Assembly: GCF_900143675.1 (NCBI RefSeq) | Contig: NZ_FRFC01000004.1 | Span: 186,001-250,000, forward strand | From: Candidatus Nitrosotalea sinensis | GTDB lineage: Archaea; Thermoproteota; Nitrososphaeria; Nitrososphaerales; Nitrosopumilaceae | Direction: 5' to 3' | DNA length: 64,000 nucleotides | Part shown: one piece after another, positions 20,814-25,360 of the stretch | How the letters are laid out: each line of letters opens with the position of its first letter | How positions within the stretch are numbered: the stretch's first letter is position 1 | Translations under genes and position numbers: made by a program | Notes under the pieces: generated by a model | Database searches by the model: none | Told to the model about the DNA's origin: nothing | What the model saw: the letters and a program-made list of their open reading frames with translations, nothing else

Positions 20814-20985
20814 AATCAAAATATATCATTATAAGCAAAAATGATTATAATATATCACATAAATATCATAGTATCTATGTAAATTTCATATTTATTAAGT
20901 CAAATAAGATCCAAAATCGATCAAGATCAGCAAACCAACGATCAATAAATCAAACCACTTCAATATACCGGATCTGTGTGTGAGG

Positions 20986-21840
20986 ATGAACAACGAAGAA
21001 TTACAACAGTCAATTTTTGACTCGGATGCAGGTTCTGCCATGTACGAACACAAGATGGCATTTGACAAGCTAAAAGATGAGCTTGCCAAGTTTGGTCTTA
21101 CATCTAATCAAAGTAAGGTGTACACATATCTTGGAAAATATGGTTCCAGAACAGCCCCAGAAGTATGTAAGGCACTCAAATTACCAAGGACTGAGACATA
21201 TCATCTATTGACAGTATTACAAAATAAAGGACTAGTATCTGCTACATTCCAAAATCCTATACGTTTTTCTGCAGAACCATTAAACAAGGCAATATGGGTG
21301 CTTGTCAATGCAGAAAAAGAGCGCATCAATGTGCTAGAAAAACAAGAAACAGAGATTATGAAAATATGGAAATCAATTCCAGAATACAATGAAACATTAG
21401 AGACCAAGGACGATAAATTTCAAATGTTACAGAGTGACAACCAGACAAACAGTAAGATAAAAAAGATGATAGAGACTGCTGAAGATGAGTTTCTTGTAAT
21501 TGGAGCAGAAAAAGACTTTCTAAGATTTTATCGTTCAGATTTTTTTGAAGAGATTGACAAGAAAAAGACAGACATGAAACTTTTGACATCAATATCTGAA
21601 AAGATGAAATACATTTTTGACGATATTGATAGATCTAAAGTTCGAATGATGCCATCAGATATACGTCAGAATCTATGTTTTCTCATAAAAGATAGCAACG
21701 AAATGGTGTTTTTCATGAAAAAATCAAACAATACATCAGAACAAATGTCAGCAGTGTGGACAGATTCCGAAGCCCTGATTTATTCCATGAAACTTCTTTT
21801 TGATACACTTTGGACAAAATCAAACAAAATACATCTATAG
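20986..21840 (+). CDS. TrmB-family transcriptional regulator (copy 2)
   Basis: A 284-residue paralog of the regulator at 6106. The winged helix is KFGLTSNQSKVYTYL then TAPEVCKALKLPRTETYHLL. The helix NAEKERINVLEKQE and the C-terminal domain with KFQMLQ, GAEKDFLRFY and AVWTDSEALIYSMKLLF all align with copy 1. GTG 20980 lies two codons upstream and is an alternative start. The 172 bases upstream are very AT-rich. It is convergent with the KaiC-like gene. Conserved DNA-contacting helices suggest the two copies bind similar operators. Confidence 0.9.
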   Translation: MNNEELQQSIFDSDAGSAMYEHKMAFDKLKDELAKFGLTSNQSKVYTYLGKYGSRTAPEVCKALKLPRTETYHLLTVLQNKGLVSATFQNPIRFSAEPLNKAIWVLVNAEKERINVLEKQETEIMKIWKSIPEYNETLETKDDKFQMLQSDNQTNSKIKKMIETAEDEFLVIGAEKDFLRFYRSDFFEEIDKKKTDMKLLTSISEKMKYIFDDIDRSKVRMMPSDIRQNLCFLIKDSNEMVFFMKKSNNTSEQMSAVWTDSEALIYSMKLLFDTLWTKSNKIHL

Positions 21841-21842
21841 TA

Positions 21843-22577
21843 TCACGTAGATATTCTAGGATGCATTATCTGCAATCCAAGTTCGTTTAGCTTCATCGGA
21901 AATACCTGTTCACTATGTTTCATTCCCTGTAGTTTGACTACTTGGATTGATCGTTCCATCGCATCTCCTTTTCTTACACGATAAAGCATTATCAAGCCAG
22001 ATGCGATATACCACTCTACATGTACCTTATCAGGCAATTCAGATTGTGATAGTAATATCGAGGTGCAATTTTGGCCCTCAAGTGCATATATCATTCCCTG
22101 TAGTCCTTGTCTTATGTAAAAGTCATCAGTATATTGCATTTCAAGAACAGAGAGAGAATCAAGAACAAGTCTTTTTGCACCTATTCTTTTGATGCTACTC
22201 AAGATAAGTTGGGTCAAATGCATGAAAGGCATTTGTTCTCCACGATAAAGCGATTCATCAAATGCAATAAAACCCTCTTCTTTCTTAAAAGGCCTTGCGT
22301 CAATTATTATCATCTTTCCTTCCTCTATTAATTTCTGGACATCCCACCCAAAAGATTTGAAATCGTTTTTAATTTCAGATGGGCTTTGTGATAGTGTAAC
22401 AAAAATACCTGGCTCTTCAAAGTCTTTTGCCCCGGAATAGAGAAATTGTATTCCAAAAGTTGTTTTACCGCTTCCAATAGAACCAGAAACTACTATAGTC
22501 TGTCCTTGTCTAAATCCTCCCGATATAACAGAGTCAAATCCTGAAATTCCAGTTTTGACCTTAATAGACTCACCCAT
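21843..22577 (-). CDS. KaiC-like RecA-superfamily ATPase
   Basis: A 244-residue single-domain KaiC/RadA-like protein. It opens with GFDSVISGGFRQGQTIVVSG and Walker A GSIGSGKTTFG (about residues 33-43). Walker B is RLVLDSLSVLEM near residue 140. It has one RecA core, not the two of cyanobacterial KaiC. Archaeal members of this family are signalling ATPases of mostly unknown role. It is convergent with the TrmB-type copy 2, with 2 bases between stop codons. Link to that regulator is possible but not shown. Confidence 0.88.
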   Translation of the reverse strand: MGESIKVKTGISGFDSVISGGFRQGQTIVVSGSIGSGKTTFGIQFLYSGAKDFEEPGIFVTLSQSPSEIKNDFKSFGWDVQKLIEEGKMIIIDARPFKKEEGFIAFDESLYRGEQMPFMHLTQLILSSIKRIGAKRLVLDSLSVLEMQYTDDFYIRQGLQGMIYALEGQNCTSILLSQSELPDKVHVEWYIASGLIMLYRVRKGDAMERSIQVVKLQGMKHSEQVFPMKLNELGLQIMHPRIST

Positions 22578-23989: not shown

Positions 23990-25267
23990 CTAGTTTCCTC
24001 TACTAGATATTTGCATTACTGGAATTGAGAAATATATCGGATATACTTTTCCAGTAGTCGGGTGGTTATAGTTCCATCTTTTATCTTGTGGATCTATTTT
24101 GATAAATTGTGATGTCATGTCAGGAGACAACATCTTGTATGCCTCTTCGCCTATTGTCATCTGGTTTGGTTGCGCAAGAGGTAAGATTTTTGATGCAATT
24201 GTTATGCTATGGCCTATCAAGTCAGGCTCAGAACCAAGAACAACAATTCTGTTTTTACCCACATCAATTCCAATTCGTATGCTTATCTTTGGCAAACCAA
24301 AGCTTGCAAACATTGGATTTAGAGAATGTGTTATCAGCATATTCATAGAGCGTGCGCAGCGTATTGCATTTTCCGCCATGTTTCCAAAATCTTTCAATTC
24401 TGGGAAAAATGCAATTACTGCATCTCCAGTATATTTTAAAACAAAACCAGCATGTTTTGATATGACCACAGACATTTCCTCAGAAAAAACCTTGATAAGA
24501 CCTGATAGCTCTTCAGAACTAAGAGATGTGGCTATTTTCGTAGAGCCTACTATATCCACATATAAAACAGCAGTATTGATTTCATTTTCTGGCCACAGGC
24601 TCAAAAATCTGCTAGAAATATACTTGAGAAATGCTTGAGAATAGGAGTCACTTTGTTTCCTTTTATACAAAGAAAAGTTTCGTTGAATCCTAGTCAAGCT
24701 TTGAATTACAAATTCATCATCAGCAGTAAGAATCTGGAATTTTTCCACAGGTTTTACCTGAGATACTACAGCTTCAAGATTTTCAAGTGGAACAAATTTT
24801 TTCTCAATTACGTCATAGTATCCTTTTTCACCCTCTATTGCTTGAGGCTCAAGCTTTACTTTGCTAGTTGTAAGTCCAAATGGAAATGTTGTTTTTTGTT
24901 TATTTGCTGCAATTAATATGACACTATCATATTCACTAAGAGCTAATCCTTGTTCATTTTCTACACCAGAACTAATATCAATTATACGAGAAATTGGAAA
25001 TATTGAGATTTTTCCAGTGTTTGAATTTGAACGAATTACTTCTATGACATCATGTTCAGAATTGTCTGACACTGTTGTTTGCAGTATGAATTTATCTCTA
25101 AATTCAGATCTATACATTCCAGTACCTTTGGCAGCATGTACTTCAGAACCTACCGTAGCTCCACGACTCTTTACTTTTACAATATTAACATTAATCCCAA
25201 GCATATCAAGCGCATCTGTAACAGCAGTCAAATCATTTCGCGGTAGTTCTGCCTCTATTCGTATCAT
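23990..25267 (-). CDS. PII-like domain fused to a class III nucleotide cyclase
   Basis: A 425-residue fusion. Residues 1-100 resemble a PII/GlnB signalling domain: MIRIEAELPRNDLTAVTDAL aligns with the first strand and helix, VKSRG with the region before the T-loop, and IEVIRSNSNTGKISIFPISRI with the helix and strand that end in the B-loop. The GDGK of the PII B-loop is missing, so normal ATP binding may be lost. After a linker (about 105-215), the cyclase domain begins: TAVLYVDIVGSTKIA supplies the first metal aspartate, KYTGDAVIAFFP the second, and IRIGIDVG follows. It should make cyclic AMP or GMP under control of the N-terminal domain. Cyclase call is firm, PII call moderate. Confidence 0.85.
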   Translation of the reverse strand: MIRIEAELPRNDLTAVTDALDMLGINVNIVKVKSRGATVGSEVHAAKGTGMYRSEFRDKFILQTTVSDNSEHDVIEVIRSNSNTGKISIFPISRIIDISSGVENEQGLALSEYDSVILIAANKQKTTFPFGLTTSKVKLEPQAIEGEKGYYDVIEKKFVPLENLEAVVSQVKPVEKFQILTADDEFVIQSLTRIQRNFSLYKRKQSDSYSQAFLKYISSRFLSLWPENEINTAVLYVDIVGSTKIATSLSSEELSGLIKVFSEEMSVVISKHAGFVLKYTGDAVIAFFPELKDFGNMAENAIRCARSMNMLITHSLNPMFASFGLPKISIRIGIDVGKNRIVVLGSEPDLIGHSITIASKILPLAQPNQMTIGEEAYKMLSPDMTSQFIKIDPQDKRWNYNHPTTGKVYPIYFSIPVMQISSRGN

Positions 25268-25360
25268 TTCTTAGTCAGAACTATTTATCACATATACCCA
25301 TTTAAACTAGTTTTTTAATTATCGTATGTTGTTATCCACAGTGATACTTTAATTTACGAC

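Follow-up and report, generated by a model that had tools for sequence, protein, structure and literature searches.

We show that in archaea of the genus Nitrosotalea, ammonia oxidizers of acid soil, a duplicate of their own Amt-linked PII protein has become, in a single event, the N-terminal part of a soluble class III cyclase. Whether this PII paralogue couples the Amt1/PII ammonium-uptake system to cyclic-nucleotide synthesis is, in our judgement, evenly poised. If the coupling is real, it would provide a short path from ammonium status, which for these archaea means their energy source, to a cyclic-nucleotide signal, and this in a group with several class III cyclases but no known receptor. 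The gene was found in a stretch of 64,000 nucleotides from Candidatus Nitrosotalea sinensis (the window), where a first-pass annotation, made from the letters alone, had placed it at 23990-25267. These coordinates are exact, and the gene lies on the minus strand. Its features, in window coordinates, are as follows:

23990..25267, minus strand, PII-class III cyclase fusion gene (425 aa, ATG start)
24944..25267, minus strand, PII domain, residues 1-108 (PF00543, identity to P0002, AlphaFold/Foldseek, tree)
25106..25159, minus strand, T-loop, residues 37-54 (HAAKGTGMYRSE region; a low-confidence loop in the model; Tyr52 aligns with GlnB Tyr51)
24998..25018, minus strand, shortened B-loop, residues 84-90 (the alignment shows a loss of five residues against GlnB, at its IGDGK region)
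24887..24943, minus strand, junction, residues 109-127, linking the PII domain to the part common to PII-less sister cyclases (whose ORFs start at about residue 128)
24623..24886, minus strand, middle region, residues 128-215 (GYYD...KKFVP), common to PII-less sister cyclases
24026..24622, minus strand, class III cyclase part, residues 216-414 (PF00211, 2.3e-11)
24554..24556, minus strand, metal aspartate D238
24422..24424, minus strand, metal aspartate D282
24188..24202, minus strand, T356 to K360, the transition-state Asn/Arg positions in the alignment, here Thr/Lys
25300..25313, minus strand, AAACTAGTTTAAAT, putative TATA region (by eye), ending the upstream stretch about 32 bases 5' of the ATG

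The N-terminal 108 residues are a true PII domain. Searched against Pfam-A, the whole fusion protein gave two matches only, PF00211 and PF00543. The latter (P-II) covers residues 2-99 (E=4.6e-4) and spans positions 2-99 of the 102-position model. It scores 20.9 bits in the full protein and 24.5 when the domain is taken by itself, narrowly missing the curated cut-off of 25 in both cases. The domain does, however, share 45% identity across 109 residues (E=8e-36) with P0002, a standalone PII of the same genome that scores above this cut-off and is encoded by one of two tandem PII genes adjoining an ammonium transporter; identity to the second tandem PII is 39%. A profile of 21 fused PII domains retrieved PII chains only from the PDB, with E. 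coli GlnB as the best match (2e-6). In an AlphaFold model of the domain, strands (residues 2-9, 28-32, 59-66 and 87-91) and helices (10-22 and 68-81) follow the β-α-β-β-α-β order of PII proteins around a disordered, low-confidence T-loop, and the best 50 Foldseek matches of this model in the PDB are all PII proteins, foremost GlnZ (4co3, 7e-8). The identity to P0002, the PDB profile search and the Foldseek matches rule out a chance likeness. The resemblance of residues 1-100 to PII, which the first-pass annotation had noticed by eye, is thus borne out by PF00543, P0002 and the profile search, and the structure prediction that it had suggested yielded a PII fold, with GlnB among the PDB profile matches.

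The C-terminal part is, as first annotated, a class III cyclase with both metal aspartates. PF00211 matches residues 231-387 (E=2.3e-11) with 44.1 bits against a curated cut-off of 21.9 and is matched in all 21 fusion homologues, in which D238 and D282 are invariant; together with K278 and D349, these residues are retained in every cyclase row examined. No Pfam model matched residues 128-215. Structure prediction of the full-length fusion gave no usable model (pLDDT 47), because its 21 homologues are all at least 72% identical. The source genome contains four PF00211 matches, one of them weak and partial, and a search of it for the cNMP-binding domain PF00027 found none.

The missing GDGK residues, to which the first-pass annotation had drawn attention, correspond in the alignment to the five-residue B-loop deletion, and they are not peculiar to the fusion. 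In the family's Amt-linked PII group, represented by 57 rows (21 fused domains, six PII-A, six PII-B and 24 PIIs of other genera), the deletion is found in 57/57 rows, as is the replacement of Arg101 by Asp, and Arg103 is also lost, being Ser or Gly in the fusion. Judging by this alignment, the loss is a trait of the whole Amt-linked group; B-loop length is kept solely in the third PII type of the source genome. The fused copy bears changes beyond those of the standalone PIIs, namely Asn for T29 (21/21), Thr or Ser for F92 and Thr for V64, and has Thr or Gly for Q39. Residues at positions 29, 64 and 92 contact ATP in archaeal GlnK, where ATP and 2-oxoglutarate are coordinated by the B-loop and by R101, R103, T29, F92 and Q39 (PMC8395244). 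Given the loss of the B-loop, R101, R103, T29 and F92, we infer that canonical ATP/2-oxoglutarate sensing is unlikely to persist in the fusion. The equivalent of the 2-oxoglutarate-binding Lys58 is retained as K59 in 20 of the 21 fused homologues, and the same number have Tyr at the position of GlnB Tyr51, where Amt-linked PIIs have Phe. The remodelled pocket is strongly conserved within the fused clade, where N28, T65, R94 and D97 are invariant.

All standalone Amt-linked PIIs of the family (L062-L099) likewise carry the five-residue deletion and lack Arg101 and Arg103, which makes classical ATP/2-oxoglutarate sensing doubtful in these ammonia-oxidizing archaea (AOA) as well. They would constitute a PII subfamily without the classical ligand site, and reviews that assume 2-oxoglutarate/ATP or uridylylation control in these organisms may err.

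In a phylogenetic tree, the fused PII domains come together in a single clade (100/100) and join PII-A and PII-B of Nitrosotalea (90/99), both of which adjoin amt; all of these fall inside the Amt-linked PII group. A single fused clade at this position is most simply explained by one fusion event following the duplication of an Amt-linked PII. The sister cyclases, which are 52% identical to the fusion but lack PII, start at fused residue ~128, which indicates that the PII domain and a short junction were added to a pre-existing cyclase. At one locus (L129), 1.5 kb separates a sister cyclase from PII-B/PII-A/amt.

Of 37 Nitrosotalea genomes, at least 23 carry the full-length fusion, including that of Candidatus Nitrosotalea devanaterra (chromosome LN890280.1), which rules out an assembly artefact. 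The search for this domain pair in other relatives, likewise proposed in the first-pass annotation, found no full-length match in 129 sampled genomes from 21 other genera of the family, and outside the genus a 151-genome sample of the phylum yielded standalone PIIs only. Both domains are under strong purifying selection: dN/dS is 0.02-0.035 in the PII, middle and cyclase parts, with dS partly saturated in the second group.

The presence of the fusion parallels that of the ammonium-uptake system. Of the 19 near-complete genomes, 15 combine the fusion with the tandem Amt-linked PII genes and two to three Amt, while the other four (G073, G079, G085 and G097) have neither the fusion nor the PII tandem and a single Amt. 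On a GatB tree, each trait requires four changes, and all four independent pairs are concordant; with four pairs, significance is out of reach (sign test, p 0.125), and the tree is that of one gene, so that this co-occurrence is suggestive only. One deletion does not explain the joint absence, since the fusion and the Amt/PII loci are ~90-130 kb apart in the source genome, G044 and G008. A loss of ammonia oxidation is ruled out as its reason by amoA, which all four near-complete genomes lacking the fusion retain. Where the fusion is missing, its flanking genes, purE and a 185-aa ORF, are adjacent; the gene is therefore truly absent, and an assembly gap is ruled out. In G079, a 555-base search gave a weak match (E 1.7e-4) to residues 368-414, correctly placed and oriented, which is perhaps a remnant of the fusion; another match of similar weakness lies on the other strand.

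The fusion is kept only alongside the ammonium-channel system, so that converting ammonium status into a second-messenger signal is its probable role. The PII module would tether the cyclase to the Amt1/PII system, either through co-assembly with the standalone PII-A and PII-B subunits or through T-loop docking onto the Amt trimer. Depending on its state, the module would raise or lower the synthesis of cAMP or cGMP by altering the pairing of the cyclase domains. Since a PII trimer and a cyclase dimer differ in symmetry, the switch is likely to be a hexamer or a mixed PII trimer. The signal would be ammonium or Amt status rather than ATP, ADP or 2-oxoglutarate in the classical pocket. The T-loop motif is MYRSEF in the fusion as opposed to xFxPEF in Amt-linked PIIs, which means that docking on Amt may have been lost. 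Counted against the coupling as such are the Thr/Lys pair in place of the transition-state Asn/Arg and the absence of PF00027 from the genome. The more specific proposal that, in acidophilic ammonia oxidizers, Amt1 occupancy is converted by the PII domain into cAMP or cGMP without classical sensing, for a receptor other than PF00027, is correspondingly more tentative, and we hold it to be possible rather than probable. Of the PII-type sensor of nitrogen or carbon status that the first-pass annotation had envisaged, the domain identities and the idea that PII controls the cyclase stand, and the link to nitrogen gains from the origin of the domain in an Amt-linked PII and from its occurrence alongside the Amt1/PII locus; that the usual PII ligands are sensed is not supported.

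Alternatively, the PII domain might bind a small molecule of its own, such as the cNMP product or another metabolite, in the remodelled site and thus exert direct feedback on the cyclase, independently of Amt. The invariant pocket residues speak for this, as does SbtB, a member of the PII superfamily that binds cAMP (PMC10117731), but no particular ligand is indicated, the B-loop deletion and the loss of R101 are common to standalone PIIs, and the co-occurrence with Amt1/PII is not explained by feedback alone; we consider it unlikely. If the classical ligand residues are gone while the fold is retained, the domain could also be a mere assembly scaffold, a trimer or hexamer that senses nothing. 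This is distinctly unlikely, given that T-loop residues V43-T49, R53, S54 and E55 are invariant among the fused homologues and that dN/dS is as low as in the cyclase. Conversely, ATP/ADP and 2-oxoglutarate bound between the subunits might still set cyclase activity, as in a classical PII, for which the retained fold and K59 could be cited; with a B-loop five residues shorter and with R101, R103, T29, F92 and Q39, whose counterparts coordinate both ligands in archaeal GlnK (PMC8395244), all replaced, we regard this as very improbable.

On the cyclase side, the transition-state substitutions raise the question of whether the domain is catalytically dead and serves for binding nucleotides or partners. 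The Lys at the Arg position is, however, common to all AOA cyclases in the alignment, the Thr at the Asn position being limited there to the fusion and its sister group, and the metal aspartates as well as the substrate-binding Lys/Asp are invariant, which makes a dead enzyme quite improbable. A role in making or controlling c-di-GMP, finally, has been proposed in print (PMC7646526) on the strength of the Pfam name guanylate cyclase. It is nearly excluded: PF00211 denotes the class III mononucleotide cyclase fold and not GGDEF, a domain that is absent from the fusion in Pfam-A and for which nothing in the source genome scores above the cut-off (best E 0.16).

The existence of the PII-cyclase pair is thus already known: in 2020, one sentence tied a Nitrosotalea protein with PII and guanylate cyclase domains, A0A2H1FDM3, to c-di-GMP (PMC7646526), a link that is probably wrong. 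Matched here by description rather than by sequence, this protein very probably belongs to the same family as the fusion; the paper gives no anatomy, distribution or partner system for it. In the searchable papers we found no account of the anatomy and origin of the fusion, of the pocket remodelling that it shares with AOA Amt-linked PIIs or of its co-occurrence with Amt1/PII, and a literature search for AOA adenylate cyclases with cyclic nucleotide signalling gave nothing. Among known systems, the standalone Amt-linked GlnK/PII proteins of AOA resemble the fusion in sequence (45% identity), B-loop deletion and lost arginines, but they are only ~109 aa long, retain T29 and F92 and have Phe at the Tyr51 position. 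The bacterial class III cyclases CyaB (3r5g) and CyaC (1wc1) share the catalytic domain with both metal aspartates, whereas the fusion has PII as its N-terminal sensor and Thr and Lys in place of the transition-state Asn and Arg. The cyanobacterial PII-like protein SbtB also connects the PII fold with cAMP, albeit as a separate cAMP-binding protein not joined to a cyclase (PMC10117731). In Azospirillum, GlnZ controls second-messenger enzymes, a diguanylate cyclase and a phosphodiesterase, but does so non-covalently, in response to 2-oxoglutarate and in c-di-GMP metabolism (PMC7646526).

The fusion gene lies tail-to-tail with purE, which adjoins it in 22/22 named loci from this genus and related MAGs, and is divergent from the 185-aa ORF. 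A functional tie to purE was weighed and set aside, the two genes being tail-to-tail and the fusion having its own divergent upstream region, in which the putative TATA region appears by eye to be partly conserved among homologues. A tie to the bio genes was likewise set aside; in several genomes, the bio side was not found close to the fusion. Close to the fusion, in part of the genus, lie genes for a KaiC-domain ATPase and a TrmB-family regulator (window 21843-22577 and 20980-21840).

Directly after the sister cyclase, a GvpD/KaiC-like ATPase gene is found at three loci (L128:2955-5285, L129:3099-5390 and L131:2298-4604), and at L130 it lies 1.6 kb downstream; the two genes possibly form a signalling unit. 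L130 (G085) has the same neighbourhood as L129 (G103), without PII-A, PII-B and amt between the ATPase gene and a 158-aa ORF. Elsewhere, an ORF of 104 aa that weakly matches PII (22.8 bits) adjoins a CrcB-like membrane protein (L039:1037-1734), which we take to be probably the known DUF190-CrcB pair.
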